Assembly: GCA_963921825.1 (NCBI GenBank)
Contig: OY997592.1
Coordinates: forward strand, 64,500,336 to 64,564,335
DNA from: Erodium maritimum
Lineage: Eukaryota > Streptophyta > Magnoliopsida > Geraniales > Geraniaceae
DNA length: 64,000 nt
Reading direction: 5' to 3'
A model generated the notes under the pieces. It ran no database searches and was not told where the DNA came from. It saw nothing but the letters and a program-made list of their open reading frames with translations. The position numbers were made by a program, and so were the translations under genes. Below, piece by piece: positions 2,020 through 40,632 of this stretch (the stretch's first letter is position 1; each line of letters opens with the position of its first letter).

Positions 2020-3828
2020 GTACCCTAAAAATATTTGGTTTTCATCCGAGTACCCTAAAAATACTTTGTGACAGATAAGTACCCAAACGTAACATTGTGT
2101 TTAAAATTAATACCCGCCGTTAGTTTTCCATCTATTTTGGATGGAAAATGGTCATGTGCCTGGCACATGACCCCAATTTTTCTAAAAATACCCAAATTAC
2201 CCCTTATCTCTTTAAACCCATTTTCTTTTAAGAAAATAACCCAAAGTACCCAATCTTTTTCTTTAAACTCATCTCATACCATTTAATTTCTATTTAAAAC
2301 TCACCTCAGGACATTTTTTTTTTCTATTTCATCTCAGTTTCGCCGGTGACTCAAAACCCCTTCTCCTTCCTTGTTCCGCCGGCGACTCCATGGCCACCGG
2401 CCATGGATGTCGCCGGTCGTGATCTTGTCCTGTTGCTGCTCCGTTTCCCCAAGCGTTTGCTGGCGTTACATACTCGGGAGGGCCTGCTCTGTCAACCTTC
2501 ATCAGATCTGGCCTTTGTGGTCGGATTCTGGTCGGTTGAGGCTCGGGTAAGGTGGCCGGCCTTGCCCCAGCTTTGATCTGGTACGAGTTCTCTCCCCCCT
2601 CCTCGTTCAGGTCAGATTTGTTCAGATCTGGACTCAGGACACTCTGGCTGTTGCTGGTCAACAACCTGTCGCCGTCGCCGTGGTGTGAGACCCGACCGCC
2701 TTTGTGGTGTGGTGTGAGACCTGGCCATGCAAGGGACTGCACGATTTTTGTTGCCTGAAGTGATTTTTTGTTTGGGTTTGAAATTTTGGTAAAAACTTTT
2801 TTGTTCTGAAATCTTAACATTTGACTGATTTCAGACCCAAAATTATTACCAAATCTGAAAATTTTAGGATTTTGTTCAGTTTGAAATTTGGGTGAGAACA
2901 TTTGTGTCGTTCTTCATGTTTCCTTCATTCGAATCTTAAATCTGGAAATTACCTTTGTTCATCGTTTCTGGAAATTTTGATGGGGTTGAACGGTGTTGGT
3001 GTTGATTAATGGAGTTGGATGGATGGTATATGAATCTGGAAATGGAGTTGGATGGATGGAAATTTCAATTATATTGTTGAATGGTGTTGGATGGTATTGA
3101 ATGTTGTTGGGGTTGGATTGATCCGAGATTGGAGGAGATGGAGAGATTGGTTCAATCAGATTTTAAATGCTATAATCAGAGATTAGGAAATAGAAACCAA
3201 TATAATCAGATTTTAGAATATTAATTAATGAAACTGATTTTTAATTATTAAAACTGATTTTTTGTAATTAAAATCTGATTTTTTTTCTAGTAAATTCTGA
3301 TTTTAAAATAATAAAATTTGAATTTTAAAATAAAACAGGATATTAAAGAATTTTTAATAATAAAAATTGATTTTTTTAAAAAATAAAAACTAATTTGTCA
3401 AAATATAATATATATTTTTTTAAATGATTTTTAAAAATAAAATCTGATTTTTTGAAATAAAAGCTAAATTTCTTTAAAAAATAAAACTTGATTTTTTATA
3501 ATAAAATATTAACTTTTAAAATAAAAACTAATTTGAAAAAAATAATATCTGATTTTTTTTTAAAAAAATTGAGTTTTTAAAAAAAACTGATTTATATAAA
3601 ATAAATAAATAAATAAATTTTGAAATTCAATGGCATGGTTTGAAAATTTGAGTGTTGAGGAGGGGTATTTTGGACTTTTCAACGTTTTGGATGGAAAATA
3701 GACAGAAACTAACGGTGGGTACTGATTTGAAAATAATGTTTCGTTTGGGTACTTATCTGTCACAAAGTATTTTTAGGGTACTCGGATGAAAACCAAATAT
3801 TTTTAGGGTACTCGGATGATAATAACCC
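2020..3828. mobile_element. MULE-like DNA transposon (MULE-1) with gene-like cargo
   Basis: Long terminal inverted repeats of roughly 150 bp begin 'gtaccctaaaaatatttgg' on the left and appear inverted at about 3650-3811 on the right. A 9-bp direct repeat, aaattttaa, flanks the element at 2011-2019 and 3829-3837, as expected for Mutator-like transposition. Joining the flanks restores LINE text (NFNDFRPIN), which supports the boundaries. The right end carries about 17 bp more than the left, from a partial duplication of a 'ggtactcggatga' unit. The inside is a GC-rich block at 2330-2760 followed by very AT-rich sequence. No transposase is seen, so the element is non-autonomous. Confidence 0.8.
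2330..2760. other. GC-rich cargo of MULE-1 (possible captured gene fragment)
   Basis: A block far richer in GC than the element around it, with 'gccggcgactccatggccac'-type words, open in several frames on both strands (for example minus 2329-2901 and plus 2346-2576). None of the translations matches a family I recognise. Proline/arginine-rich compositional openness is common in such DNA, so I do not call a gene. It could be a transduplicated first exon or 5' UTR (Pack-MULE style) or sequence native to the transposon family. Confidence 0.4.
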
Positions 3829-5315
3829 AAATTTTAATGACTTTAGACCTATCAACTTACAAATTGATCTCCAAGTTATTAGCTGCTAGACTCTAACCAT
3901 ATATGGATCAATTGGTGAATGATGTCCAATCTAATTTTATTGGAGACAGACAAATTTTGGATGAGCAACTAAGGTAGTGCAACATATCAAATATTATGGG
4001 GATGAACTGGTTATCATAAAAAACTTATCATCATATGGACTGGTTACTTGTTAAAATTCTTACCAAGATGGGATTTGGTGTTAAATGGTTAATGTGGATC
4101 CAATCTTCCATCCAAGTATGGATTTCAATCCTGATCAATAGTTCCCCCTCCTCAGACTTTCAAATGCATAGAGGTTTAAGACAAAGATGCTCTGTATCCC
4201 CACTTCTCGTTGCATTGACGGTGGAAGCTCTTCATCAACTTATGGTGGTTAGTCTTGAAAAGGGCTTGATTGAAGGGGTTAGTTTTAGCAACAGTTGTCC
4301 TAATGTCTCTCATCTTCAATCTGTATATGGTACATTAATTTTTACGAAAGTGAATTATCAGAAATCTAAATTTGTCCTCTTGAATCCTCATTCTATGTCT
4401 GGCCTCCAGATTTCTTAGCTTCCCTTCCTTTTAACTATTTGGGTTTTCAGTGAGGAGCTAATCCTTCAAGGTTGCAGACTTGGGAGCCTATCATTCTTAA
4501 TTTCAAAAGAAAGTTGGAGCTGTGGCATACAAAAATGCTTTCTTTTGGTGGGAAAGTAACCTTAATTAAATCCACTCTTTGCTCTCTCCCTTTGTATTAC
4601 ATGTCTCTCTTTAGAGCCTTCGCTGGTGTTTTTGAAGAATTAGAAAGTTGGCAGAAGAGATTCTTATGGAAAGGTTCAGTTATCAGAAGAGTTTTAAACA
4701 AGACTAAATGGTTTGTTGTGTGTTCTCCTAAAGCTGGTGGAGGTCTGGAAATTAGGAATTTACACATCATGAATAAAGCTCTATTAGCTAACTGACAGTG
4801 GAGGTTTGCCTTGGAGAAGAAGTCACTGTGGAAGAAGGTTATTTATTTTAAGTATGGGTGGGATGAAACATCAAAGTTGGGTTTTTCCAATAACCAAAGC
4901 TTTTTTAGCTTTGCCAATATTTTTTGTTATAAAGGTTTGTTGTGGAGATTGAGAAATGATGTCAAGATTAGCTTCTGGGAGGATATCTGGCTTACATTAT
5001 CCTTCTCAAGTTCTCTTTCCAAAGATTGTTTCATCTAAGTAGAAAGAAAAGGGGAAAGGTAGCTTTGTTTTGGCAGAATGGTATGTGGTATTTGGACTTT
5101 ACAAGAAGGTTGAGAGGCTGGGAAAGAGGAATATTCAGAAGACTTGCTTTGCTCCTAAAGAAAGTCACTTTATCAGATGATGTTGTCTTGGAAAGCTGAT
5201 TCTAATGGCTTCTCTATCAAAAAAAATGTATGGGTTGCTGTTAGGGGAGGTTCTCAACTGTCCAGAGTGGGCAAAGTTATTGTGATCTACATCTTTACCT
5301 CTTAAAGTAGCAACA

Positions 5316-5689
5316 TTTACTTGGTTGACTTGCTATCAAGCTATTATTACAAGATCTTTGGTCGCTGAGTAGCTTTCCCATTTTGTGCAGTTGAACTGGA
5401 GGATCAAAACAATCTTCTTCGATTCTGCAAGTTCTCTTGGTCTGCCTGATCTAGGGTGATGATGTGGTAGGGAGTGAGGTGGTCTTGTCCTGAGGATATT
5501 GGAGCTCTTATTAGCTCTTGGAATAATCTAGTGGGAAGGAATTCTAACAAGTTCTGGAGCAACATTTTATTTTTGATCCTTTTGGCAGTTATGGATTGCA
5601 ACAAATGGGTTTACTTTCAATGGAACAGTAGTTGATCCTATTCTTGGGGACATTTTCTTAACAATTCAAAGTGAAAGCTACAACTTGGA
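5316..5689 (+). repeat. 374-bp direct duplication of LINE sequence, left copy
   Basis: This stretch of the LINE's 3' part, from 'tttacttggttgac' to 'gctacaacttgga', is repeated at 10932-11305 with the same length and about seven differences (roughly 98% identity). The two copies directly abut the outer ends of the Copia element at 5690-10931, exactly where a 5-bp target duplication would be expected. Confidence 0.9.
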
Positions 5690-8600
5690 TGTTGGGGAAG
5701 ATCGGTAAAGTACGGAAGCGATTTGCTTCTTTCCCCTCTTTGTAGATTTAAGATGGGCACAATAAATTGTAAAACGAAGTAGAGAAAGAACACACACAGA
5801 TTTTACGTGGAAAACCCAAATCGGGAAAAACCACGGTGGACCTCAGTCCGAAAGCTCTTCACTATATGTGAGATTACAAAGGATTCTCTCTACACTCGAC
5901 TATAGGATGACTCACAGATTCTCACTCTCTCAAGTGGCTCACTTTTTCTCTCTACAAGAAGAACTCACAATCTGCTCTCTTAGATGGATATGCAAATATC
6001 TCTCAAATGCATCTATTTATACTACTAAATGGGAGGTTCTAGAAAGAGCGATTCTAACTATCTCCAACACATTCTAGCACCTTCCATCTATTTCCAACAC
6101 ATGCTAGAATGTGTGGTAAGATCTAGAGTTCTCTAACACACTCTACAAAGTGTGGTAGGATGTAGAATTCTCCAACATATTCTAGAAGATGGAATCTTCT
6201 AGAATTTGGGCTTCAAGTTGGGCTTAACACAAATTATGGGCTTCCCTAATTATGGAGGAATACCCAACAAATCTCTTCCTTCCGACTTAGTTAGGGAGCA
6301 TCACCATGCCTGCACCATTGCAACAATCTTCAAGTTTCTTGGCCGAAATTACCTTCGTCATCATGTCTAACCAGTTGTCATCTGTATGTACCTTACTGAG
6401 TTGTAGAAGTTTCTTTTCCAACACATCCCGAATCCAATGATATCGAACATCGATGTGCTTTGATCGGGAGTGAAAAGTAGAGTTCTTGGCCAAATGTATT
6501 GCACTTTGATTATCGCAATGCAATACATACCCTTCTTGTTTATGGCCTAACTCAATCAAGAGATTCTTCATCCATAACATCTCTTTGCATGCTTCGGTTG
6601 TTGCAATGAACTCGGCTTCAATAGTAGATAATGCCACACTTTTTTGGAGCTTTGACTGCCACGATACAGACCCCCCCTGCAAAAGTAGTCAGATATGCTG
6701 ATGTTGATTTTTGAGAATCAATATCACCAGCCAAGTCTGCATCAGTGTAGCCCTCTAGGATAGTATTTCCTCTTCCAAAACATATGCAGCTTCTTGTTGT
6801 CCCACGTAGGTAGCGAAATATCCATTTCACCGCTTCCCAATGTTCTTTTCCAGGATTAGATAAGAAGCGACTTACCACACCAACAGCATAAGCAATGTCT
6901 GGTCTTATGCAAATCATAGCGTACATGAGACTTCCAACCGCTGATGAATATGGAATGTCTCGCATTTCAGCCTTATCCTTCTCACTTGTTGGACTTTGTT
7001 GTCTAGTCAACTTGAAATGCCCAGCCAATGGTGTGTTAACCGGTTTTGCCTCGTGCATGTTGAATCTTTCAAAACTTTTTCAATGTATCTTTCCTGAGAA
7101 AGCCATAGAGTCTTCTTGGATCGATCCCGAGTAATCTTCATTCCAAGGATTTTCTTTGTCGGTCCCAAATCTTTCATGGAGAAGGATGCACTTAATGCTT
7201 TCTTCAGGGCACTTATCTTATTTGAATCTTGTCCAGCAATCAACATGTCATCAACGTAAAGTAGAAGGATAATGAACTCATTATTGGCATACCTTTTTAC
7301 GAAGACGCAGTGATCGATAAGAGTCTTCTTGAAATCATGTTCTGCCATGAATGAGTCAAACTTCTTGTACCATTGTTTTGGTGCTTGCTTGAGACCATAT
7401 AGGCTCTTCTTGAGTCTGCACACCAAATGTTCTTTGCCTGGAACCACGAACCCTTCAGGTTGTTCCATGTAGATCTCTTCATCCAGGTCTCCATGTAAGA
7501 AGGCGGTTTTAACATCAAGTTGCTCAATCTCCAAGTCTAGGCTAGCAGCTAGACTTAAGACCACCCGTATAGATGACATCTTCACCACTGGTGAGAATAT
7601 CTCATCAAACTCGATCCCTTTCTTCTGGTTGCATCCTTTAACGACTATCCGAGCCTTGAATCTGGGATTTGAGTTATTTTCTTCAACCTTGAGCCTGTAC
7701 ACCCATTTGTTCTTGAGGGCTCTTTTTCCTTTAGGCGGCTCCACTAGATCATAGGTGTGATTCTCGTACAGAGACTCCATCTCGTCTTGCTTGGATTTCA
7801 TCCATTCTTCCTTGTGTTTGTCGAGCATGGCTTCCTCATAGCTTTGCGGCTCCCCCTCATCTGTAAGCAACACATAATCTTTTAGTCTGGCAGGAAGTCG
7901 CATGTTCCTCTTAGGTCGGCCTTCTTGTTGTTGCACTGAATCCTCTGATGTAGCGTTTTCTGGCTCGGTTGGTTGATGCCCTATAGATTCCTTTGTTGGT
8001 GATTCAGAGTTATCTACATTGCTTCCAAGGTCTTCTCTTTGGATCTCCGGGGTATCTCTTTCTGAGTTGTCATATAGCTCAGGGATACGACAACGATGAA
8101 TATTTTCCTCCGGTCTTCTATTTTCAGGCCTTTTGTAGTTTTCAATGGTTTGATATTCGAAAAACACCACATCACGACTTCTCACGATCTTCTTGTCTTT
8201 TGGGTCCCAAAGACGATATCCAAATTCGTCCTTCGGTGAGCCAAGGTAGATGCACTGCTTGGTTTTGGAGTCTAGTTTAGCTCGTTCATCTTTAGGGATA
8301 TGAACGAAAGCTAGACAACCAAACACTTTCAGATGGTTGTATGAAGCCTTCTTTCCTGACCAAACTTCCTCTGGGATATCTCCATCCAAAGGTGCTGACG
8401 GTGAGAGATTTATGATATCAACAACAGTCTTGACAGCCTCACCCCAGAATGTCTTTGGTAGCTTGGCGTGGGAAAGCATACATCGCACTCTTTCTTCGAT
8501 GGTGCGGTTCATTCTTTCAGCCACATCGTTCAACTGAGGTGTCTTTGGAGGGGTCTTCTCGAGCTTGATTCCATGTGCTTTGCAATATGCTTCAAATGGG

Positions 8601-10931
8601 CCACGATACTCTCCACCATTATCGGATCGAACGCATTTCAGCGTTAGGCCCGTCTCACGTTCCACTCTCTTATGGAACTCCTTGAATGCTTCAAGTACCT
8701 GGTATTTTGTTTTAAGCAAAAACACCCAAATTCTTCTTGAATGGTCATCAATAAACGTCACAAAGTATAGAGCGCCACCAAGAGATTTTTCAGTCATAGA
8801 GCACACATCAGTGTGTACTAAATCGAGAATATGATTTCTTCTTTTTGGATTAGTAGATTTCAAAAATGAAACTCTATGTTGTTTTCCAGCCAAACAATCG
8901 GTGCATGAGTCAAGTGTCGTACCTTTGATATTGGGAAGCAGTTCTTTTCGTGCGAGAATTTGCAGGCCCTTCTCGCTCATGTGTCCCAGCCTCTTGTGCC
9001 ATAACTCCATGTTTGAGTTGTTATGTGCAACATTTACCTCCGCTTTGTACAACTTTCCTTGCGTGACATACAAGGAGCCTTCCTTTCTTCCTCGAGCTAT
9101 GATCATGTTGCCTTTGGTGAGCTTTCATTTACTACCACCAAAATGACTCACCAATCCTGCATCATCAAGCTTTCCAGCTGAAATAAGATTTAGACGCATA
9201 TCTGAGACATGTCTTACATCCTTGAGGAGTAGCTTGCTTCTTATACCAGTCACCATTGTGATATCGCCAATACCGATAATCTTTCTTGTGACTTGATTTC
9301 CCATTTTTACAAACCCAAACTCTCCATTTTTATAAGATGAGAAAAACTCTCCATGAGGAGTGACGTGGAAGTAAGCGCCCGAGTCTACTATCCAATAGCT
9401 GTCATCATATGCAAGGTTGAGATAATTTTCTTCTCCAATGAGAAAAACATCAACATTATCCCCCGTTGCAACAACTGTGTAATTTTTCTCCTCCTTCCGT
9501 AGCTCTATCTTGTCTGGTTTCACTGTCCCGTTCCTTTGATCCCTTTTGAGATTTCGACACTCTTGTTTCTTGTGTCCAAATCCACCACAATAGTAACATT
9601 CAAGCTTTGAGCGTGATTTGGATCTTCCCCTTGGCTTGTCATAACCTTGAGTCTTGCTTCTTCCTCGAGTGTCATTTCTTCTACGCATTTCACTCCTACC
9701 ACGAATTTCAGCAATGTTAGCATCAAATTGATTGTACGTACCTCGTTCTTTTCTTCGAGCTTCTTCGTTTAACAAGCTGTCAGCCACTAGATCTGTGGTA
9801 AGCTTTCCTTCTGGGGCAGAGTTACTTAGGGTGATGACCAGAGTATCCCAACTCTCGGGAAGTGAACTGAGGAGTAATAGAGCTTGCAACTCATCTTCAA
9901 CCTTCATCTCAGTCTTTGTCAATTGGTTGACAAGACCTTTGAAATTGTTCAGGTGCTCGATCATATTCTCTCCATCTTTATACTCCAACTTCACTAGCCG
10001 CCTCACGAGATGAGCTTTATTTCGAGGTGTCTTCTTTTGAATCATGGACTCGAGCTTTGTCCATAATTCATAAGCATTTGTGTAGGTGGCTACATGCTCA
10101 AACAAACTTCGGTCGATATATTTCTGGGTCATTGCTATGGCCTTGCGGTTGAGCAGCTCCCAATCTTTCTCATTCTTCCCTTCCGGCCTCGTTTGGTTGG
10201 TGATTGGCTCGTGTAGATCTCTGCAATACAGATGGTCCTCCATCATGGGCTTCCAGTATGAATAGTTCTCCGTCGTGAGTTTGAACATGTCGCCATCATG
10301 ACTGACGATACCCTCCATCGTAAGTCGTTGCTAGAACCGGGCTCTGATACCACTGTTGGGGAAGATCGATCAAGTACGGAAGCGATTTGCTTCTTTCCCC
10401 TCTTTGTAGATTTAAGATGGGCACAATAAATTGTAAAACGAAGTAGAGAAAGAACACACAGATTTTACGTGGAAAACCCAAATCGGGAAAAACCACGGTG
10501 GACCTCAGTCCGAAAGCTCTTCACTATATGTGAGATTACAAAGGATTCTTTCTACACTCGACTATAGGATGAATCACAGTTTCTCACTCTCTCAAGTGGC
10601 TCACTTTTTCTCTCTACAAGAGGAACTCACAATTTACTCTCTTAGATGGATATGCAAATCTCTCCCAAATGCATCTATTTATACTACTAAATGGGAGGTT
10701 CTAGAAAGAGCGATTCTAACTATCTCCAACACATTCTAGTACCTTCCATCTATTTCCAACGCATGCTAGAATGTGTGGTAAGATCTAGAGTTCTCTAACA
10801 CACTCTACAAAGTGTGGTAGGATGTAGAATTCTCCAACATATTCTAGAAGATGGACTCTTCTAGAATTTGGGCTTCAAGTTGGGCTTAACACAAATTATG
10901 GGCTTCCCTAATTATGGAGGAATATCCAACT
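5690..10931 (-). mobile_element. Ty1/Copia retrotransposon (Copia-1)
   Basis: The two LTRs, 5690-6269 (580 bp) and 10354-10931 (578 bp), both start tgttgggg and the left ends acccaaca. By eye they differ at about 14 sites (near 97.5% identity), suggesting roughly one to two million years at commonly used plant rates. The primer-binding site beside the right LTR is tggtatcagagcccgg on the minus strand (initiator-Met tRNA); a purine tract lies inside the left LTR. From right to left the parts are gag with a CCHC knuckle (CYYCGGFGHKKQEC), protease (IVDSGAYFHVTP), GAG-pre-integrase, integrase, reverse transcriptase (YVDDMLIAG) and RNase H, the Copia order. The coding region has about three breaks, so it is a fossil, though all domains are present. 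Confidence 0.92.
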
Positions 10932-11305
10932 TTTACTTGGTTGACTTGCTATCAAGCTATTATTACAAGATCTTTGGTCGCTGAGTAGCTTTTCCATTTT
11001 GTGCAGTTGAGCTGGAGGATCAAAACAATCTTCTTCTATTCTGCAAGTTCTCTTGGTCTGCCTGATCTAGGGTGATGATGTGGTAGGGAGTGAGGTGGTC
11101 TTGTCCTGGGGATATTGGAGCTCTTATTAGCTCTTGGAATAATCTAGTGGGAAGGAATTCTAACAAGTTCTGGAGCAACATTTTATTTTTGATCCTTTTG
11201 GCAGTTATGGATTGCAACAAATGAGTTTATTTTCAATGGAACAGTAGTTGATCCTATTCTTGGGGACATTTTCTTAACAATTCAAAGTGAAAGCTACAAC
11301 TTGGA
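10932..11305 (+). repeat. 374-bp direct duplication of LINE sequence, right copy
   Basis: Second copy of the segment at 5316-5689. It starts directly at the end of the Copia-1 right LTR; the LINE then continues uninterrupted with 'aaagtctctcttttacag' at 11306. Its divergence from the left copy is about 2%, similar to that between the two LTRs, which dates both duplications to about the same time. Confidence 0.9.
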
Positions 11306-11517
11306 AAAGTCTCTCTTTTACAGATCCTCTCCCTTCCCCTTTCAGGGTTGGAAATGGTTCACTCATACTTCTTTTAGAATTTCTAAGGACTTTACTTTGG
11401 AACTGATGGTCCAATATTCACTTCAGCTTATTCTATGTGGTTTGGGGAATTGCTTTTTTTTTTTTGTTGAGGAATTTGGGGAATTTCTTTAGTTGCATAT
11501 TGTGTTGTTGGATTATG

Positions 11518-11959
11518 TTTTTCTTTTTTTATATAAGCTCGAAAATTTATTAATAAGACCGATTCTAAATGGACCGGAATGCCCTGTTCAAGTAGAATAA
11601 GGAAAAAGACAACAATTATAAAAGAGCTCTAATAAGGAGGAGTTAAAAGGCCAAGCCTTTTCCTAACACGAAACAAGGAACAGTACCAAAATAGAAAACT
11701 CTTCCAAACCTCGCCTCCCGAAGTCAAAGACGAACAGTCCCTCCTTTCTTCTTGGAAGCCAACTCATGGATTTTAGTCCATGTGTCGGTCCCGTGAGACG
11801 AGGCTGCAAGTTGAGTATTTCCAAGTCGGCCTTGCTCAACCTGTTTTCCAGAATCGATGAGACTAACAATTCTTTCTCGGTCCAAAGAGCGGCTCCTTGA
11901 TTTACACGTAACGGTATAAAATTCCGATAAGTGTTTGGGAGGTCGACTCACCCGTTTAA
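11518..11959 (-). mobile_element. 5'-truncated LINE 3' end (LINE-2), minus strand
   Basis: A 442-bp insertion flanked by the 10-bp target duplication ttggattatg (11508-11517 and 11960-11969). Its left edge is a T-rich tract followed by 'ataagctcgaaaatttatta', the reverse complement of the usual plant LINE 3' end. Short minus-strand frames run through it, but none shows a domain I recognise. A SINE mobilised by the same LINE tail is a less likely alternative. Confidence 0.7.
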
Positions 11960-14900
11960 TTGGATTATGCCTTTGCTGCATAATCTGTGGTGAGAAACAA
12001 TATAGTTGCTACATCTCTTGTGGTTTTTTGCTGTTGAGATTGCTTCTCTTTGGTTGGGGATTTGCTGTTTAAAGTTGTTGTTTTTATGTCTTCTTGTTGT
12101 AGATACCCTTTTCGGTGCAGATTTTGGGTATTTTTTTGGTGTCTGATAGTGTACATTCTGTTAGATTGGGTTCAGTATGTCTCTTGACATTGATTTGTAA
12201 TTGGAGGTGATTTATCCTCCTGGCCTTGTCTTTACTTCAAAGGCAAGATTCGTTTATAAAAAATATCTTTAAAAAAAAGTGTTAGAATTAGAGAGAGAGT
12301 AGAAAGCTATTGATAGAATGTAATATGACGGTAATACAAAGCTGTTTAGGTTATACTAAAGGGAAGGGCTAAATAGCAAATAAGGAAATATATAGGGACT
12401 TTAAATGCTAATACCCCCTCTCAAACTCACGATGCTACAGCGACAAGCATTGAGAGTTTGCTAACTAGAAAACGAAAACGAGAAGATGAAAGCGCCTTGG
12501 TGAAGAGATCGGCAATTTGAACCGATGAAGAGACGAAAGGCAATGTGATGTGATTACATTGAAAGTGATGTCTGACAACATGACAATCAATCTCAATGTG
12601 TTTCGTACGCTCGTGAAACACCGCATTCCTTGCAATCTGAATGGCACTCTTATTGTCGCAAAACAACGAAGTGGCCTGAGGAGAGCTAACACCCATATCT
12701 GCAAGTAACCATCGCAACCAAACAATCTCACATGTCGTATATGTCATGGCTCGATACTCCGCTTCCGTGGACGATCGAGAGATAACATCTTGTTTCTTGC
12801 TCTTCCACGATATAAGAGAATCGCCTAGGAAGATACAGAACCCCGTGGTTAACTTGCGATCAGTGGGATCACCAGCCCAATCAGCATCAGTGTACGCACG
12901 AAGATCCAATGAAGAGCTCGACGATAGAAGTAAGCTTTGAAATTGAGTTCCTCGAAGAAACCGAAGAATACGAAGAACAGCACCCCAATGAACTGTAGTA
13001 GGAACCACAACAAACTGACTAACCACGTGAACGGCATGGGCAATATCGGGACGCGTAATAGTAAGGTAAACCAAACTACCAAAAATGGTACGATACAAAG
13101 CAGGATCAGGTAGAGCTACCCCATCAGTCAAAGCATATCGAGCATTGGTTTTAATCGGAGTATCCACCACTTTGTTGTCGGTAAGCTGGGCACGCTCAAA
13201 CATATCAGCAATATACTTTGACTGAGATAGGATATATCCTTTCGGAGATGAAGCAACCTCAATTCCAAGAAAGTACCGTAGCATACCCAAATCCTTCATA
13301 GCAAAGCAGCGAGCTAACTTAATCTTGAGACATTCAATCTCATCGACATCATCACCAGTAATAATCATATCATCAACATACAAAGAGAGAAGAATACGAC
13401 CTTTTTCGGTGCACTTAATGAATAAAGCATAATCATGATGACTGCGAGAGAAGCCAAGCGATGTGATCACAGTAGAGAACTTCTCAAACCAAGCACGAGG
13501 GGCTTGTTTGAGACCGTAGAGGGCTTTTCGAAGCTTGCAAACTTCACCAACCTTGTGAGTGACACCTGGAGGCGGATCCATATAAACTTCTTCGTGGAGA
13601 TCACCGTTGAGAAACGCATTTTTCACGTCCATCTGAGAGATTTTCCACCCACGAATAGAAGCAACAGCGATGAGAGTTCTAATTGTAGTCATTTTGGCAA
13701 CCGGAGCAAATGTCTCTTCATAATCCATGCCATATTGTTGAGAAAACCCCTTAGCAACGAGTCGAGCTTTGTATCTTTCAACAGATCCATCGGACTTAGT
13801 TTTGATCTTGTAAACCCATCGGGAACCGATGGTGCGTTTTCCCGGTGGTAACAAAACCAAATCCCAAGTACGTGTTTGACGCAGTGCCAAAAGTTCCTCA
13901 TCCATAACATTCTGCCAAAGAGGGTCAAGAACAGCTTCTCGATAGGACGAGGGCTCAGAGATACGATGAATAGATGTTAGGAAAGACACAAAGGAACTAG
14001 AGTAACATGAATATGAGAAATCTGGGAGTTTAGTGGACTTACGGACCCTACTTGATGTGCGAGGTGGAGGATCCACATTCTCTGGAGCTGATTGCGAGAC
14101 CACGGGTTAAGGAGGTGAAGATGTGGCGGGAACAATAGTACCCGAGTTAGTTGCCTCATCACACGGAGCAATAGGAGGTTCGAGATAATCTTCATCAATA
14201 TCAAAAGGATCAATACTGACTAGATCTGATTTTGTCATATTATGGGAATTTTCAGGAACCGAAAAATATGGAATATGTTCAAGGAAGAATACATGACGAG
14301 AGACATACAATTTTTTACCAACAGGATCAAAGCGACGATATCCTTTTTGACCAACCCCATAACCCAAGAAAACACACAACACAGATCGAGAAGTCAATTT
14401 ACTACGCTCAACACTAGGACGTAGCACAAAACAAGCTGACCCAAAGACCCGCAATGCAGAATAATCAGGAGACTGACCATGAATCTTTTCAAAAGGTGAC
14501 AAACCTGAGTTATGTGAAGTAGGAATTCTATTGATTAGATAAACGGAGGTCAGAACAGCTTCTCCCCAAAACACACCTGGAACCTGAGATGATAATATAA
14601 GTGATCGAGCAGTTTCAACGATATGACGATGTTTTCGTTCTGCTACACCATTTTGTTGAGGGGTATCAGTACATGAACTTTGATGAACAGTTCCATCAGA
14701 GTTAAGTAACCCGGAAAAATCATGAGATGTGTATTCCCCACCTAAATCACAACGAAAACATTTTATGACAGACGAATATTGGGTTTTGACAAGAGCTCGA
14801 AACATATCAAATATATTCAGAAATTCAGAACGACGTTTCATAAAATAAACCCAAGTGTAACGAGTGTAGTCATCAACAAAAGATACATAATAACGAGAAC

Positions 14901-16834: not shown

Positions 16835-19800
16835 GTTTAAAAACGAATCACTCTTATATGTATCAGGAGATGCTCTCTGCCGGCCCTAGAGGGGAGCTCG
16901 TGAGCAACGGAGGCAGCGGCGCATGGGGGCGAGTGGACGTCTCCGGCGACGGCGGCGGGTGGGAGCAGGTGAGATCTGGTTGTTTATCATTGTATCTCGC
17001 ATGCTTGGGTTTGATTTTGCCTCGTCGAGGCGGTAGTAGGACGATTTCGTGGTCTGGTGTTGCCCCACGTCCGACGATCTTCGGCGGCGTGGTTGGTGGT
17101 GGTTCGATGTGGCGAAGGTCGTGGAGAGCTCGGCGTTAGGTCGATGTGAAGGCTCCGGAGGAGCTGATGCCGAGGGAGGTATCGGAGCCGAGGATGCGAT
17201 TCTCGGCGGTACGGGGTATGAGAGAGGTGAATCCGGGCGGTGGCTGGCGATCCGTGGTGGTGACTGGAGGTCGCCGGTTTCCGGCGAGAGGCCCGCGTCC
17301 TCGGGTACCACGGGGAACGCGGGGGAGGCCGGCGGGGCTTCCGTATGAAGGAGTGGCGGCGGGACGGGACGTCGTCCTAGTCTCGTTGGACACTGTGGTG
17401 GCGATGCTGGAGCCTTCGGCGACGCGGGAATGGAGGCGGCTTAAGGGGAAGGCGGTGGCCGAGGCGCGGTACAACCCTAGCGAGTCGGGGTTGGGCCTGG
17501 GGCAGCAGACTGGGCCGGGCCCGGATGGAGAATCACAAGCAGCGGCGGCGGGGGGCGTCAAGCACCCCCACCTGAAGGAATGAGTCCGAGGTGGCCCGGG
17601 GAGGGGTGGGTCAACTTTGGCCCCTCCCCGGCGGATGGATGGAGACGGCACCATCATCAGTTGATAATTGTCACACCCCAAATCCGGTTCTTGCCCGGAC
17701 TCGAGGCATGACTAGAAATAAATGATTTAAAAGGCAATCACTCAACAATAAGTTCCTGAAAAACTCCAATAAGAAACTCAAATTCACAAAATTCGGTTTA
17801 AAACATAAATAACCCTCCATGGGTGTAATAATAATCCTCCACAAGGTTTGTTCCAAACAGTAATAAAATAAAAGCGAAGTCTCTACCGACACCCACACCA
17901 AGAAGCTCCCGATCCTCTACTCCTCAATCAAGCCTGTAAACACAACAATAAACTCATAGGGGTGAGCTTGCGCTCAGTAGGGAAAATCCATAACCAGGTG
18001 GACTTTAAACGCACTAAGATCAACAGCAAAGTCAACAAGATAGTTCTTAACAAACACGGGTAATAGGTAATCCAGCCAATGCCGTGGCACATGAAGTCAC
18101 CACCCTCCGATCCACAGATGATGTGTCCTCTCGGATTTTCCCTCAAATCCAGAGGAGACGCATATCATTGAGGCGAACGGAAACAACCCTTCGGGGCGCT
18201 TATCATCGGGATTCTCAGAAACGTCTCCAAACGATTTTATGTCCTCGGGAACCAAGGTATTACCCCCATAGGAAGCATACACTTGGACAATTCAATAATA
18301 AACAGATAATAAATGAGTAACACACTCAAACCGAAACACGAAACAATCCAATCCCAACAAACACCAATTCACTGTCACACATAGCTCACAGATCACCAAT
18401 TCACCACAACACACAACACACGAATCACATAATCACACTACGCAAATCACACAATCACAACTTACCGTTCACTTACCAGTCTCGACCCAACGGGGCATCG
18501 ATCACCTGATTGCACCGCTCGGTACAACCAGTCATACTCGATGCTCCAAGCAACCATTTAAGGACAACAAGCAATCATTCAATTACATTCAACTGTCAAG
18601 TACGAGTTTAATCAACCAATCATAAAAACCTTCAATCGAGCATTCACACATGCAATTTAACTAGTTCCGTTAGACTCTTTAGCCTATCCACTAAGCAACC
18701 AACAACCAAGCATGTGATCCTAACACGCAACTAATCCGAGGGTTTTGCCAAGGCCACTCTACCAGTCAAACAATTCCCAAGTATTGAAAGCGAGTTACAC
18801 TAGTGATTGGCATCCTAATCATTCACCACTAGACACTTCCGGTTATTAGTAATTGAAAGACAAGTATGCTAGTTATTCGCATCCTATAGGCATTTCTAGG
18901 ACCTTTCCGATTTTATTAGCCTAACATGCATACTAAGCATCATAAACGAGGGGTTAAGGCTTTCCCTACCTCGAGGTCTTCCTCTCAACACTCTGATGAT
19001 AAGCCCGGTGGTCGCCACTCCGTTCTTCACACGGGTTCCGGCGTGATCTTTGCTCTTCTAGCTCGGGTCCAAGCCCTTGATCTCGGGCGAAGTCCCGTCT
19101 AGATTAGACAAAGAAAAGTCCAATCAATAAAGATAAAAGTCTAATGGTCCTTGATTTAACCAAGAATTTCCCGTTCAAAGTCTCACCTTGAGTTCGTTAA
19201 ACCGGTTAATTAAATCTGATTTTAAAACGGTTTCAATTAAAGTCTGGTTGACCCGGATCCGAACCCGAACCCGGTCCAGACCCGGTCCTGAAGTTCAACT
19301 GGGCCCAAGGCCCGTCTTCTGGTCTGTCTGGCCCGATCTTTCCCCCAGGCCCAAGGCCTTCTCGGCCCAGTTCTCTTCTGGCCTAAGGCCCGGTTTTCCC
19401 TGCCCAATCTGGCCTGGTGAGATCGGCCTGAGCTGGACGTGACGCCGGTGAGCAAAGGTTGCTCCGGCGGTCTTCCACGGTGGCAGGTGAGGTGCGACGA
19501 CGACGAGAGAGGGGCGGAGGAAGGCGGCAGGTCCACGACGAACCCGAGGTCGTGGCGGCGGTGGATCAGGTGAGAACCCACGCTCGCCTCTCGTTCAGAT
19601 CTGATGAGGGCCCGTCTTCTCCGGCGAGTGGAGCGCGACGGAGCTCGGGTTTCCGACGGCGATGCTCGTTCCTACCCAGCTCGTTAGGCTGGTCTTCTGG
19701 CGGTGGGTCACGGAGGAGAGAAGGACGACGAGGGTACCGAGTGAGGTCGAGCTCGGAGACCTCGTACTCCGGCGACGCTTCGATTCCGACCACGGAAGGT

Positions 19801-21904: not shown

Positions 21905-23897
21905 TTTAGAGTGTGTGGCCCAACAAACCCGAATGCACCATCGGTCTAGATGTCTTCTCGGAAACACAACATCGGGGTAAATCTCATAACAAACATACCG
22001 GACCGGCACACACCTCGGTCGGGTATCTTCCCATTGCACGGGGGTACAAGCCACACCACACAATAACATACCAAACATGTTACACCGAACTTATCATACC
22101 ATCAAAGCTTACCGACATAACTTACCAAGCACACCACATCGGTCTATCATTCACCCGATCATATCACAGACAACAATTCATATCACATTCATTCACCCAA
22201 TCATATCACGAGACAACAATTTATATCACATTCATCACATAACCTAATTCTTAAGTTAACCATGGAATATACTATACATCAATTTTAAAGGACTACTAGC
22301 CACAACCAGCACACACAATCCTGAGGCACGACATGGCCACATGTGATTCTACGGCACGGCCATTCCCATAATTTACATACGAGTACACTAGTTAATCACA
22401 TCCTTTATGCAAGCTAAGACTTTACCGGTTATTAACGTCTTATATGCATACTAATAACATTCCTTAATAAAGCGGTAATTACTACTCTTCCCTACCTCAA
22501 ATGCTATCCAAACTCTTAGTCACATGAACCACCTAGAAGTCTCCTCCGCCGTGCTCGGGAACAAAGTCTAAGAGAACAAGCAATACTAGAATTAAGAGTA
22601 ATTCAAGAGCGGTTTAAAGAGTAAATGTCCCAGTTAAATCCCCAAAAGGCTCGGTTATAGATAACCTTACTAATTAACCGAAAACGACTAAAATGGGCCC
22701 AAAATGCCCAATTCTGATCCATCACGGATCGGGTCACGGAGCCTTGACGGACTCCGTGACGGTTCGGGTCACGGAACCGTGAGGCTCCCCGTCATGGGTG
22801 ACGGCACGGAACCGTGACGTGTGCCGTCACGGCCTCCGTCACGGAGCCGTGACGTCTTCCTTCACGGTCCCCGTCACGGATCCATGACGGGTCCGGACAG
22901 ATTCGTCCATTTTCTTCCTCCAGCTTATTCTCCACTAAACCAGATATTCCAAACTCCATTTTTGACCCCCAAAACCTCCAAAAAACGCCCCAAAACCCTC
23001 AATACTCAAAGACCCATAGTGGGTTTCATCAAAACAACAATTACCCAAGTGATTTCCATCCAAAACATCCATTTTCTCCTCACATAACAAGCATTTAAAC
23101 ATCACAAACTCAAACCCATAAAACCTAGCACTAATTCATGCAATTTCTATGAAACCCATAACCCCAATTCAATTGAAAATAGGTTTTTAGATGTTACTTA
23201 CCTTAGAAATGAAGAGATGAAGGAGATTATGAGATTTTGAGAAGATTTGGTGAAGAATTCGATCCAAGCTTCCTCTTTTCCTCCCTTTCTTTTTCCTCAA
23301 GCTATGGAGCTATTCTTCTCTCCTCCCCCTTGTGAATTTCGGCTACAGTGAGAGAGAATGGGCTGAAATGTTTGCTCCATGTGCACTTAAGACCTAGTTG
23401 AGAAAGGTCTAATTTACCCCCTTGCTCTTTCACCTCTGTTTTGGCACATGTGAGGTCAAATGAGTCTTTCTAGACCCATTTCTTCTCCTCCAAGCCACCA
23501 TGGACAAGTGTCCATGTGGGAGCCACCTTGCCCTTACTAATTTCCAGCACAATTAATTTGAAACGGTTTAACCTTTAATTGGGCCTAGTTTGACCCAAAG
23601 TTTACTTTTTCGTAAAATTAGTCATTTGAAAGGAAACGACCAACTAAGCTAACCGTAACGACGACTAAGCTTTTTGGGTCCCAGAAAGGTCCCGAATGAC
23701 TCTCGGAGTCATCGGTTGACTTTTCCGGCGGAAAGTCAACTTTCGCCAGATTTCACCAGTTCTACCGGGATCGACCGAGGGCGGTTCTTACAATCTACCC
23801 CCCTTAAAAGAATTTCGTCCTCGAAATTTAAAACGAACGTACCTCAAGGGTCGAACAGATTGTGGTACCTCACGCGAAACTCATCCTCGCGCTCATA
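21905..23897 (-). mobile_element. 3' end of a Gypsy-type element: truncated long LTR plus end of internal region
   Basis: The right LTR edge is at 23792 (ttcttaca, i.e. tgtaagaaccgccc on the minus strand). Next to it at 23793-23805 lies a purine tract (aaggggggtagat on the minus strand), preceded by the last part of a polyprotein-like frame whose minus-strand text resembles the 3' end of Gypsy pol. So this is a 3' LTR, not a solo one. The LTR matches the solo LTR at 47835-50642 (for example the blocks near 22500-22560 and 49255-49330) and fades out near 21905, short of its expected tgtcacg end. The other LTR and nearly all of pol are missing. It is a broken fossil. Confidence 0.75.
22735..22895. 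repeat. GC-rich 'cacgg/ccgtg' word tract in the truncated long LTR
   Basis: About 160 bp made of permutations of gtcacgg, accgtgacg and gcctccgtcacg. The words are mutually complementary, so the tract can form many alternative hairpins. It starts about 0.9 kb from the LTR's own 5' end, the same offset at which the two solo LTRs of this family carry different GC-rich words. Confidence 0.75.
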
Positions 23898-28873: not shown

Positions 28874-30315
28874 TGTTATGATCCTGCGTGATCGATCGCG
28901 TTATGGGATAGGATACGGGCTCATTAGAAGGGAACCCGAAGACCTTTTGATACAAGCTCATGATTATAGAGGGAACTCGAAGACCTCGTAGGAGAGACCA
29001 AAGTATTTTTTAATTCTCAAGTCTGCTTTATTCATTAATCTCTCTTGGTATATATAGCCAAGAGATTACTTGGAGTCTAAGTTCTAATACACTTAAAAGG
29101 AATACTACTAACTTACCAAATCCTAACACATAATTAAAAAGAAATACATTAAAAGGAAAGACTCTCAAACTAGGACAATTATTAAAAGGAAATAACTAAT
29201 TAAACTCAAACCCTAGTCGATTATCCCTATTTGGCAGCAGCTGCGCAGCAGATTTGGTGTGTTTAGCCCACTCAGTTACGGTCCGTAAGACCCATAACAT
29301 CACTCCCCCCTCGCAGATGGCGCTTGTCCTCAAGCGCATTAGATGGAGTGATGTCCTTCATATGCATGCTGGCAGCTACGTCCTCAATCAAGTTCAGATT
29401 TTTTTTAATATAAACCGCACCCTGCTTATTACCTCCCAAAGTGCCACGTCGCCAATATGTATTTCAATAGGAAGCATAGTTGGCTCTTCTGATATTCCAG
29501 AGTGTTGTGGTCTCTTCAGTGCCTGTTTAGAATCCTCGTGCTGATTCATCGGTGTTGTGTCAGATAAAGGATTGATCCGGACAGCCAAGTCTCCTGCAGA
29601 ACTGTCCTCCTGACAGGGCTTTGTGTGGCATTGGAGTTGCGCTCCGGATTTGGTGGTGGTGGCTGCCGGAGCTGGTGGTGGTTGCTGCCGGCCAGCCGGG
29701 GCTGAGATCGCCTCATGCGGAGGTGCGGACAGCGCACGAACCTGCAGCGCCAATTCCTCTAGCTCTCTTCGATCAGCTTCACTTTGCAGTCGATCAGCTT
29801 CAATTTTCAGCTTATCAGCTCTATATTCGGCCATGAATGCCATAACTTGCTGCTGAAACGATTGCTCTTGGTCCATAACGAGTGGCTCTGATACCAGTTT
29901 GTTATGACCCTGCGTGATCGATCGCGTTATAGGATAGGATACGGGCTCATTAAAAGGGAACCCGAAGACCTTTTGATACAAGCTCATGATTATAGAGGGA
30001 ACTGAAGACCTCGTAGGAGAGACCAAAGTATTTTTTAATTCTCAAGTCTGCTTTATTCATTAATCTCTCTTGGTATATATAGCCAATAGATTACTTGGAG
30101 TCCAAGTTCTAATACACTTAAAAGGAATACTACTAACTTACCAAATCCTAACACATAATTAAAAGGAAATACATTAAAAGGAAACACTCTCAAACTAGGA
30201 CAATTATTAAATGGAAATAACTAATTAAACTCAAACCTATCCCTATTTGGTAGCAGCTGCACAGCGGATTTGGTGTGTTTAGCCCACTCCGTTACGGTCC
30301 GTAAGGCCCATAACA
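28874..30315 (-). mobile_element. Miniature non-autonomous LTR retrotransposon with gag-like frame only
   Basis: LTRs at 28874-29299 (426 bp) and 29900-30315 (416 bp) are about 96-97% identical outside one ~9-bp length change. A perfect 5-bp target duplication, ttctc, lies at 28869-28873 and 30316-30320. The internal region is only 600 bp. The primer-binding site beside the right LTR is tggtatcagagcc on the minus strand, and a C-rich tract (the purine tract on the minus strand) follows the left LTR. The only coding content is a minus-strand frame starting MDQEQSFQQQVMAFM. It is helical and charged (KIEADRLQSEADRRELEELA, coiled-coil-like), then Pro/Ala-rich, and resembles a gag N-terminus. There is no protease, integrase or RT, so the copy depends on another element. 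The structure looks whole for a TRIM-like element. Confidence 0.88.
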
Positions 30316-30484: not shown

Positions 30485-33400
30485 TGTTAGAATATATTAT
30501 TTAAGGGTTATTAATATATTATATTATTCCCTATCATGTGGTCAATTAGAAACCCACCCCTTTTAGGAAACGTGCTATTCTAATTAAATGGTAATTACCA
30601 ATTAATTGGTAAAGAAGTCTTTCCTTATTCAATCTCTACTTTGATGGATGGTAGAGATTGAATCCTAATGAAACCCTAATAAGGAATCTTGGTCCTCTCT
30701 CCACCTATAAATACATGTGGCTTATTCCATTATAAGCACACAATTCACAAACACAGAAAGAGGTGTATAGGAAGGGGAGAGAAACCAAGATCGTAGAAGA
30801 CAAGGAGGCTTTTCTCTACAAGTGCAAATGGGCTTCTCTACAAGGCACCATCACCATGAACGGAGGTAATTCTGAAACTCTTATCAATGTGATTGATTGT
30901 GATGCCCACGATTTAGGGTTCATGTAAATTATAACTTACATGTGGTATCAGAGCACGGTTTAAGGCACACAATTTCTCCTTAATGTAAATATAATTGTTT
31001 CATATTTCTGATGCATGTTTGTGATCGAGAGATATGTGATTTGTTGGGATGAACTGTAATTTTCGGAATGAACAGTGCTTATGAATAGAGATTTCAAAAA
31101 AAAAAAGTGAACAGTATTTTCCGTAACAGTGATTTTGAACAGTATTTCGGGAATAGTACCTCCGATGAACAGTACCCCCCATTTTTTTTGGATGAACAGT
31201 GAATCTGTCTAACAGATTTTTCAAAAAAAAACTTTCGAATGAACGGTACATCCGTTTAACAGTATTTTTTTTTATTTTTTTTTTCGGATGAACAATAAAT
31301 CTGACGAACAGTTTTTTTTAAAAAAATTTTTTCGGATGAACAGTAAATCCGATGAACAGTCTCAGTTAATTATTATTATTTTTTTCTTCTTCAGATGAAG
31401 TCATCCGATGAACAGTACCCAAAAAAAAAATCACTGCCTAATGTTTCCGCATTTATGTTTTTGACCCTTAAGTTTTCAAAAGAAATCTATTAAGCTTTCT
31501 GAATATAATGACATTCATCCCACACGTGATGTTTACATGTAATATGTAATTTATTGTAACAATTATTGTATGAAGTAGGATTGTTATGGCAAAACTTGAG
31601 GTTAGGGATCACCATAGTGAACCTAACCACACTAATTTGCTAATTGCATGTTGTCACCATAATTATGTATGCAACATTGATCAACATGTGTAGTACTTAG
31701 TTACCCACAGGTAGACTATAAACCTCTGATTGATTCAATATCTTATGGAGTTTTGTATAGTTGTAGACCAAGGATATCCACAGATAACTTGATAGTCTAA
31801 TTACCTGAATGCATAACTCAATTAAAGTCAAGTTTGAATATTACAACTATGGTATAATAGAAATATGTTGACTACCCACAGGAGCACCATAATTTCTTGT
31901 TGTAATGTTTCAATTATGTTATGGGTTTGTTGCCTACTTAAATGCTTGTTGTATCTCTATAAACTGCAGCATCTTTTCCTGTTAATATGGCATCCTTTAT
32001 CTCTACTGTTCCATCCCTCATTGGAACCAACTTCTCAGAATGGAAAGAGAAAGTTGAGTTCACTTTAGGAGTACTTGATTTGGACCTGGCTTTTCGGAAC
32101 GAAAAACCAGCTCCACTTACTGATTCAAGTACTAAGGTTGATGAGATTTTTCATGATGCTTGGGAAAAATCGAACAGACTGAGTATTATGTTCTTAAGGA
32201 TGACTATTGCTAGCAACATTAAGAGTTCTCTTCCTCAACCAGAGAACGCTAAAGATTATCTAGAAGTGATAGAAGAACGGTTTAAGACTGCAGACAAATC
32301 CCTTGCAGGGAAACTTATGGCAGATCTTACAACCATGAAATTTGATGGCACACGGTCTATGCATGAACATTGCATTGAAATGACCAACCTAGCGGCCATA
32401 TTAAGAAATTTGGGAATGACAGTGGATGATTCATTTCTCGTTCAATTTATCCTAAATACCTTGCCTCCTCAGTATGGACATTTCCAAATTCATTACAATG
32501 CCATTAAAGATAAATGGGCAGTGAATGAATTGGCTACAAAATTGGTGCAAGAGGAAGCTAGGATGAACCGCGAAGGTATCAAGGTTGCTCATCATGTTCA
32601 AGGAGTTGGACCTAATGCTAGGAACACACGGCCCACGAGCCAGAAGAGAGCACCATCCAGGACGAATAACACCAATGAAGCACGAAAGAGAGCTAAGAAA
32701 GGACCAGTAGACGCATGCAACTTTTGCAGAAAGCGTGGTCACTTTCAGAAGGATTTCCCAAAAAGAAAGGGATGGTTCGAAAAGAAAGGTAACCCCATGG
32801 GTTTTGTAAGCTTTTTCGAAACCAACCTTACTTGTGTTTCATCAACAACATGGTGGATTGATAGCGGTGCTAATGTACATGTTTCTAATTCCATGCAGGG
32901 ATTCCTTTCAACCCAAACCATAAATCCAAGTGAAAACTTTTTATACATGGGGAACCGAGACAAAGCGCCAGTGGAAGCTATTGGCACTTACCGTCTTATT
33001 TTAGAAAATGGATTTTGTTTAGACTTATTGCAAACTCTTTATGTTCCATCTATTTCTCGCAATTTAGTTTCGGTTAGCAAACTTGACCAATGTGGTTTTA
33101 CTATGTCTCTTGGAAATGGCACTTTTAATTTATTTCAAAACTCGTATCCCATTGGTTCTGGAATTTTGGTTGATGGCCTCTATAAGTTGATACTTGCTTG
33201 CAAACCCCTTGAAACTAATATAACCCTGCATACTTATGGAGAAACTAGAAACAAGTCATCCAATCATGACTCTTATTTCTTGTGGCATAAGAGATTGGGA
33301 CACATCTCCCGTGAAAGGATAAGGAGATTGGTAAAGGATGGAATCCTCCCGGATTTAGACTTTACCAATCATAAAGAGTGTGTGGATTGCATTAAAGGCA

Positions 33401-37916: not shown

Positions 37917-40627
37917 TGTAAGACCCGTCCCCGGTCGATCCCGGTAAAACCGGTGAATCCTAGCTAAGTTTGACTTTCGGCCAGAAAAGTCAACCGATGA
38001 CTCGGAAAGTCAGTCGGGACCTTTCCAGGGCCCAAAAAGCTTAGCCATTAGCACGGTTAGCTTAGTTGGGTCGTTTCCTTCAGTTTGACTGTAATATTGC
38101 TAAAGTCAACTATCGGTCAAACTCGGGCTTAATATCGGTTATTTGTCGATAAATTTTGGAAAGCTTGAAAATTATTAAATAGGAGTGACCTCACATGACA
38201 CTTGTCATGCTTGGCTTGGAGGATGAGATTTGGGGCTTCAAATGACCCTCATACCCTCCTAAGTTACCTTTAAAGGGATAAGACCTTAAGGGCTTTTGAG
38301 TAAATTGACATTTTAGGTCATTTAAAGGAAAGAGAGCAACAAATTCAGCCCATTTGTTGTTGTTTCAGCCGAAATTCACAAGGGAGAGAGGAGGAGGAGC
38401 TCACTTGCTTGAGGAAGAAGATAGAGAGGAAAGCTTGGATTTTGAAGCTTGTTCTTGGCCCCTTTGCCTTCATTTTCACTCCATCTTCTCCATCTCAACT
38501 ATCTAGAGGTAAGGATGCTCTCAACTCTCCATTTCTTCCACTTCCAATCTATGGGTTTTGTGGGTTTTGGCTCAAAAGTTGAAGAACTTGCTCTTGGTTT
38601 GATTGTTTGAAGAAGAAGTAGTGAAGTAGGTTGTTGGATTGAGTTTTGGTTGAAGTTTGATGAACCCATTGAGGGTGTAGTTGCTGGGTATCTTTGGTGA
38701 ATTATTTTGGAGCTAGGAGAGTTTAGAAATGGAGTTTGTGTTGGGATTTTGGTGAAAATCGAGTTGGGGAAGAAAGGGGAAGGAGCTGGTCAGGTCTGAT
38801 ACGGAATCTGACCCGGACCGGGCCAGGTACCGGCACGGTAGGCCGCACGGGACGTGCCTGGTACCGGCACGGTACCCAGCACGGAACGTGCCTGGTACCG
38901 GCACGGCACCCGGCACAGAACGGGCCTGGCACCGGCACGGCACCCGGCACGGAACGGGCGGGAGTCCGGCACGGGACCTGATACGGTCCGTGTCGCTCAC
39001 CGGGCCGGTCTGTGTCTGGTTCCGTTCTGGATTCCGGGCCGGCCTGTGGCAGGTCCCGTTTGGCATTCCGGATCAGATCCCCAGAAACCAAAACCCTTCC
39101 TTTTAGCTCAATTTGATTCTCACTTTTCCTCTTCAAACCTTGATCCATTTCTGAACATTGTGGTGTGTTTTGAGGAGAAGAACACTTGATTGAGGAATTT
39201 AATTTGTGTTCTTTTGGTGGTTCAAAACCTTGGAATCAAGCTAGGAAATGAGGAAGAACGTGGACACGAGTTAGAGGAGCTTTTATCACGCCGGGACCCG
39301 AGTGAAGAACGGAGAGGTGACCACCGAGCTTTCGTCAGAGCGTCGAGAGGAAGACCTTGAGGTAGGGAAAGCCTTAACCTCTCGTTTACGATGCTTAGTA
39401 TGCATGTTAGGCTAATAAAATTGGAAAGGTCCTAGATATGCCTATAGGATGCGAATAACTAGCATACTCGTCGTTCAATTACTAATAATCGGAAGTGTCT
39501 AGTTGTGACCGATTAGGATGCCAATCACTAGTGTAACTCGCTTTCAATACTTGGGATATGATTGTCTGGTAGAGGAGCCTTGGCAAAGCCCTCGGATTAG
39601 TTGCGTGTTAGGATCACATGCTTGGTTGTTGATTGCTTAGTGGATAGGCTAAAGAGTCTAATGAAACTAGTGGATTTGCATGTGTAAATGCTCTCTTGAA
39701 TGTGTTTAAGATTAGTTGATTATACTCGTGCTTGCTCGTTGATTGTATTCAAATGATTACTTGTTTTACTTGAATGGTTGTTTGGAGCATCGAGTATGAC
39801 TGGTTGTACCGGGCGGTGCAATCAGGTGATCGATGCCCCGGTGGTTCGAAACTGGTAAGTGAACGGTAAGTTGGGTTTGTGTGACTGGTGTGCTATGTTT
39901 GCGTGATTACGTGTACTGCTTGTTGGGGTGAATTGGTGGTTGTTGAGCTTGTATTATTTCGTGTTCGGTTGAGTGCGTATTCAATTATTAACTGCTTATT
40001 ATTAAATTGTCCAAGTGTATGCTCTCCATGGGAGTAATACACTTGGTTCCCGAGGACATAAAATCCCTTGGAGACGTTTCTGAGAATCCCGATGATAAGC
40101 GCCCCGAAGGGTTGTTTCCGGTCGCCTCAACGTTATGCGTCTCCTCTGGATTTGAGGTAAAATCCGAGAGGACGCATCATGTGGATCGGAGGGTGGAGAC
40201 TTCATGTGCCACGGCATTGGTTGATTTATCTTTTACCTGTGTTTGTTAAGATGTCTTTGGTTGACTTTGTTGATTGATCTTATTGAGCTGAAGGTCTATC
40301 TTGTTATGTGTTTTCCCTACTGAGCGCAAGTTCACCCCTTCGAGTCTATGGTTGTGTTTACAGGTTTGATTGAGGAGTAGAAGCTCGGGAGCTTCTCGGT
40401 GTGGGTGTCCTTAGAGACTTCATGTTTTATCTTTATTTCAGTTGAACCAGATTTTGTGAACATTTATTATTACACCCCTGGAGGGTTATTGTGTTTTGAA
40501 CTCAGATTTCGGATTTGTTTCTATTATTGGAGATTTTTCAGGAACTGAATGGTAATTTATTAATTTATTGTCTTCTTTTACTCGTCATGCCTCGGGTCCG
40601 GGCGATAACCGGATTTGGGGCGTGACA
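37917..40627 (+). mobile_element. Long solo LTR (LTR-A), Gypsy type, 2.7 kb
   Basis: It starts tgtaagacccgtccccgg and ends ggggcgtgaca, with the perfect 5-bp target duplication atgga at 37912-37916 and 40628-40632 and no internal region, so it is a solo LTR left by recombination between two LTRs. It shares its 5' part with LTR-B (47835) and the LTR at 21905-23792, and its 3' part with LTR-D (17669-20195). Near the 3' end it has the family text 'ctactgagcgcaag' followed by tttacag|g, which resembles a splice acceptor. Short open frames inside are compositional. Confidence 0.92.
38801..39070. repeat. GC-rich 'ggtaccggcacgg' word tract in LTR-A
   Basis: Imperfect repetition of ggtaccggcacgg, cacggaacgtgcc and cacccggcac, open in nearly all frames, beginning about 884 bp from the LTR start. 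The words differ from those at the same offset in the two sister LTRs. Confidence 0.8.
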
Positions 40628-40632
40628 ATGGA

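Follow-up and report, generated by a model that had tools for sequence, protein, structure and literature searches.

The Copia-1 element at positions 5690-10931 of the window (the whole 64,000-nucleotide stretch of Erodium maritimum DNA analyzed here) has a copy of one 374-bp LINE-like segment on either side, where a 5-bp target site duplication (TSD) would be expected for a Ty1/Copia element. This anomaly is genuine in the sequence, and the locus most likely records a known type of integration accident, in this case involving a Copia element. We favor, with a probability of roughly 0.6, a one-ended integration in which integrase joined only the U5 end of the element and host repair joined the U3 end.

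A BLAST comparison of positions 3001-14000 with the window aligned 5311-5689 with 10927-11305 over 379 bp, gap-free and with 7 substitutions. When the five junction bases are set aside, the flanking copies on the forward strand (5316-5689 and 10932-11305) are 374 bp long and differ at 6 sites (1.6%) without gaps. The first copy is continuous with the LINE-like sequence 5' of it, and its last base, 5689, stands directly before the LTR terminus TGTTGGGG. The second copy starts at 10932, directly after the LTR end TCCAACT, and LINE-like sequence runs on to its right; the continuity past 11305/11306 is supported by a stop-free frame (11193-11492) that crosses this point. The alignment and the junctions thus bear out the initial annotation, in which the two segments abut both LTRs exactly and the LINE continues after the second copy. 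That the duplication takes the place of the normal TSD also held, since no 5-bp repeat adjoins Copia-1 (TTGGA on the left versus TTTAC or TTTTA on the right).

The missing TSD reflects how this copy was inserted and not the nature of the Copia-1 element, which lies on the reverse strand and is otherwise recognizable as a member of its class. Its LTRs are paired and have TG...CA ends, except that the end of the right LTR, CCAACT, is one base off. The left LTR (5690-6269) is the 3' LTR, with the termini TGTTGGGG...CCCAACA, and its U5 end faces outward at 5690. In the right LTR (10354-10931), which is the 5' LTR, the U3 end faces outward and reads TCCAACT, as against CCCAACA in the other LTR. BLAST aligned the pair (5690-6268 with 10354-10930) over 577 bases, with 14 substitutions and a single 2-bp gap (97.2% identity); the terminal base, A at 6269 and T at 10931, lies outside this count. 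The internal region (6270-10353) encodes gag, integrase and reverse transcriptase. Its coding frame is now broken, as the open pieces amount to only 401, 705, 153 and 133 amino acids. Pfam matches fell on two of these four pieces: Retrotran_gag_2 (6e-32; on the 401-residue piece, a copia-type gag), gag_pre-integrs (4.9e-18), Pol_BBD (4.8e-20), rve (9.5e-9), SH3_retrovirus (1.8e-28) and RVT_2 (1.4e-74). The 153- and 133-residue pieces had no Pfam match at E 0.01. In the 705-residue piece, rve (residues 102-196) is followed by RVT_2 (455-695), which places integrase upstream of a copia-type reverse transcriptase. Beside the right LTR the forward strand reads GCTCTGATACCA, which we take to be a primer-binding-like stretch. 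When the Copia reverse transcriptase pieces were compared with viral contigs, three stretches matched a pattern and none was confirmed as a relative.

The identity of the host sequence is less firm. None of four LINE pieces gave a Pfam match at E 0.01. In a test of four pieces, one showed a zf-RVT match at E=0.012, under the curated Pfam cut-off, and this match covers only residues 5-51 of the joined piece, so that it does not bear on continuity across 5689/11306. LINE-1 ORF2 chains in the PDB matched the pieces weakly (E 0.05-0.45), and in a comparison with viral contigs one stretch matched a pattern and none was confirmed as a relative. The LINE label is therefore tentative, as it draws on the weak zf-RVT and ORF2 matches; the argument about integration is unaffected by it. 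Other features lie in and around this sequence. To the right of the duplicated segment, a 442-bp insertion with a T-rich start (11518-11959) is flanked by a 10-bp direct repeat, TTGGATTATG (11508-11517 and 11960-11969), and probably represents a poly-A retroposon on the minus strand that is nested within the tail of the LINE. An AT-rich tract (3240-3621) of degenerate, irregularly spaced AAAATCTGATTTTTT-type repeats lies upstream of the LINE-like sequence. An inverted pair of about 120 bp with 91.7% identity (2019-2138 and 3695-3812) is separated by about 1.6 kb.

The two junctions of Copia-1 are unlike each other. At the U5 end (5689/5690) the LTR terminus is complete and has no bases in common with the continuation of the LINE. 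At the U3 end, the similarity of the flanks extends five positions further to the left (5311-5315 versus 10927-10931, 4 of 5 identical), and on the right side these five bases belong to the end of the LTR. The extra identity is best read as an LTR terminus that resembles the LINE, that is, as microhomology: the left LTR ends in CCCAACA, the LINE before 5316 reads GCAACA, and CAACA is thus common to the intact LTR terminus and the LINE. At the right junction, CCAACT, the last base matches neither the LTR end nor the LINE, and the odd T at 10931 is either a later mutation or an error made at the join. The homology at the aberrant junction (10927-10931, forward strand) is accordingly 4 bp at present, and 5 bp if the fifth base is taken from the other LTR. 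Truncation is hardly present, as no more than one terminal base of the U3 end is missing or altered. Of the 1700 LINE positions from 3990 to 5689, 4 are preceded by a 5-base match to the LTR end and 10 by a match of at least 4 bases, the real site included in both counts; the chance of such microhomology over two junctions is about 0.5-1.2%. The microhomology, a detail absent from the initial annotation, is found at the same end of the element as the 374-bp duplication.

The divergence between the flanks was compared with that between the LTRs. The initial annotation had put the copies about 2% apart, close to a value of about 2.5% for the LTRs, and the alignments agree with this (6/374 versus 14/577, or 1.6% versus 2.4%). 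The rate ratio is 0.66 with a 95% confidence interval of 0.21-1.83 (Fisher p=0.49). These values suggest that the duplication and the insertion are compatible in age, within an interval wide enough that simultaneity is not proven; the proposal that the duplication arose with or near the insertion is thus upheld as far as compatibility goes and no further. If the commoner direction of change (C to T or G to A) is taken as a guide to the list of differences, without an outgroup, the changes seem to be spread over both flank copies.

Five repeat pairs in the window were considered, namely Copia-1, two LTR elements used as controls and two pairs that were dropped. The control elements, which start at 30485 and 28874, have perfect 5-bp TSDs (CAAAG and TTCTC, respectively). 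The second of these (28874-30315) is short, with LTRs of about 427 bp and about 600 bp between them; it shares with Copia-1 the stretch GCTCTGATACCA next to the right LTR, and looks like a small non-autonomous element. The pair at 12280/20553 was dropped because its ends are unclear, and the pair at 22377/49200 because it is inverted and does not represent LTRs. Another inverted pair, 1.4 kb long with 83.6% identity, lies at 17667-19071 and 39261-40629.

In the one-ended integration that we favor, Copia cDNA would have landed in old LINE-like sequence and integrase would have joined its U5 end at 5689/5690, leaving the U3 end free. The 3' terminus of the latter (forward strand ...CCAACA-3') could then have annealed by 4-5 bases to the CAACA at 5311-5315, on either the sister chromatid or the same molecule. 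A host polymerase would have extended the U3 end rightward, copying 5316 through 5689 and beyond, and the extended end would finally have been linked to the homologous flank on the right, by joining or by recombination. The product would be LINE to 5689, the element, and LINE again from 5316, so that 374 bp are duplicated where a 5-bp TSD would normally stand; at an empty allele, the single unit would read GCTACAACTTGGA followed directly by AAAGTC. We infer the order of events, the polymerase and the template molecule. Our preference for this scheme is based on several observations. The LTRs are full-length and one end is exact and canonical, while the other has microhomology and an odd terminal base. 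The long duplication sits at the end with the microhomology, as the scheme requires, and the polarity fits priming by a 3' end, since a free U3 3' end at 5311-5315 copies rightward from 5316. The match counts make chance microhomology rare, and the TSDs of the two control elements are normal. Several points count against it: a single locus is involved, the present microhomology is 4 bp with an inferred fifth base, and published aberrant ends are often truncated whereas the U3 end here is nearly intact.

We prefer one-ended integration to the two mechanisms put forward in the initial annotation, target strands cut far apart and filled in, or two recombined insertions, neither of which predicts 4-5 bp of microhomology at the U3 end. 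A stagger of 374 bp between the integrase cuts, with the gap filled in, fits topologically because a TSD of any length would give this arrangement. It is nonetheless very unlikely, as integrase geometry sets the length of the TSD (PMC5041404) and a survey of 12 plant genomes gave TSDs of 5 bp (12,909), 4 bp (1,722) and 6 bp (182), with no longer class in the passages available from that paper (PMC6911290). Somatic TSDs in Drosophila had medians of 23-26 bp for three LTR elements, but 5 bp for copia (PMC8090852). The alternative of two insertions of the same family and orientation, located 374 bp apart on two homologues and recombined into a hybrid element with a duplicated spacer, has precedents: unequal recombination is given as one source of plant elements that are intact yet lack TSDs (PMC7251063), and recombination yielding a "pseudo-TSD" was proposed for long HERV-K TSDs (PMC5488345). 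It needs two independent neighboring insertions, however, and predicts neither the microhomology nor a terminal base that is non-parental, and we regard it as improbable. Far less plausible still is a LINE that already held the 374-bp unit twice, with Copia-1 inserted exactly at the unit boundary. Tandem duplications from break repair have been reported, among other systems, in A. thaliana (Schiml et al. 2016, as cited in PMC5730883), but a canonical insertion would still have left a 5-bp TSD, absent here, and would have had to hit one exact base.

Two further explanations would produce the observed arrangement in full. A normal insertion at 5689 with a 5-bp TSD could have been followed by a break, or by the stalling of a replication fork, at the LTR end on the U3 side, repaired by a switch to the CAACA at 5311 on an empty homologue so that the right TSD was replaced. 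Such a later, microhomology-mediated exchange leaves an identical structure with identical microhomology, which counts against the one-ended scheme, and the flank divergence (1.6%) is if anything below that of the LTRs (2.4%), although not significantly so. The authors of the HERV-K study likewise allow for later rearrangement as the source of long TSDs, and their text is silent on microhomology (PMC5488345). We nevertheless consider a later rearrangement rather unlikely, as it needs a second event whose breakpoint happened to fall no more than about one base away from the end of the LTR. In an assembly chimera, a filled haplotype would have been joined at the LTR end to an empty haplotype from 5316, and the duplication would be absent from the organism; a divergence of 1.6% would be plausible between alleles. 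This, too, appears improbable. The switch would have been needed at the LTR terminus and at a match of 4-5 bp, too short for an assembly overlap, and the copies are non-identical and hence not one segment assembled twice. Moreover, when the window was compared with itself (E 1e-15 or better, low-complexity filter on), identity of at least 97% was otherwise confined to two pairs of LTRs and a single match of 92 bp. Read-through transduction was set aside, as it predicts LINE DNA at the U5 side of the new site, and the left copy is continuous with the LINE-like sequence 5' of it.

If one-ended integration is correct, Copia-1 is a natural Copia example of an integration accident documented for retroviruses, and it shows that hundreds of target bases can be duplicated by one insertion. 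In two studies of plants, elements are counted only if they have a TSD (PMC2774510, PMC7251063), and cases like Copia-1 may therefore be filtered out. A broader reading is that this Copia lineage often fails at U3 joining and is completed by host synthesis primed at microhomology, which would make a class of plant insertions, flanked by long duplications, that is missed by surveys restricted to elements with short TSDs; we consider this doubtful. It is straightforward to count, across a whole genome, the LTR elements that combine long flanking repeats with microhomology on one side. As judged by titles and the first lines of abstracts, no plant Copia or Gypsy element with a similarly long flanking duplication was among the literature matches listed, which is weak evidence of absence.

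Known systems resemble Copia-1 to different degrees. Plant LTR elements without TSDs that are ascribed to unequal recombination also have two LTRs and no 5-bp TSD, but, unlike at Copia-1, the available passages describe no duplicated flank with microhomology at one end (PMC7251063). HERV-K(HML-2) proviruses are natural germline LTR elements situated between duplications of a hundred to several hundred bp, namely 250 bp at 7p21.2, 111 bp at 6p25.2, 206 bp at 4q32.1 and 450 bp at 21q21.1 (PMC5488345). Empty alleles were determined for the 250- and 111-bp loci and not for the 206- and 450-bp ones (PMC5488345), and the HERV-K loci with long TSDs have been called likely results of inefficient integration (PMC4422153). 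They differ from Copia-1 in being primate endogenous retroviruses, and in that microhomology is not mentioned in the text on them (PMC5488345). When the integrase of HIV is impaired, aberrant proviruses mostly retain a normal junction on one side; on the other, aberrant side the commonest outcome for host DNA is duplication, in repeats of hundreds or thousands of bp, and short homology is usually present there (PMC5041404). According to the mechanism proposed there, the 3' end that was left unjoined primes synthesis on a template in its vicinity, in most cases through short homology, and recombination follows (PMC5041404). A large deletion or inversion of host DNA can take the place of the duplication at such an end. 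Although these retroviral cases come from experimental infections, whereas Copia-1 is an old, degraded insertion with a nearly intact aberrant end, the locus is like the one-ended integrations of HIV with impaired integrase and of ASLV/RSV vectors with one bad end in having one normal junction, one with short homology that would be host-repaired, and a duplication of host DNA at that end (PMC5041404).
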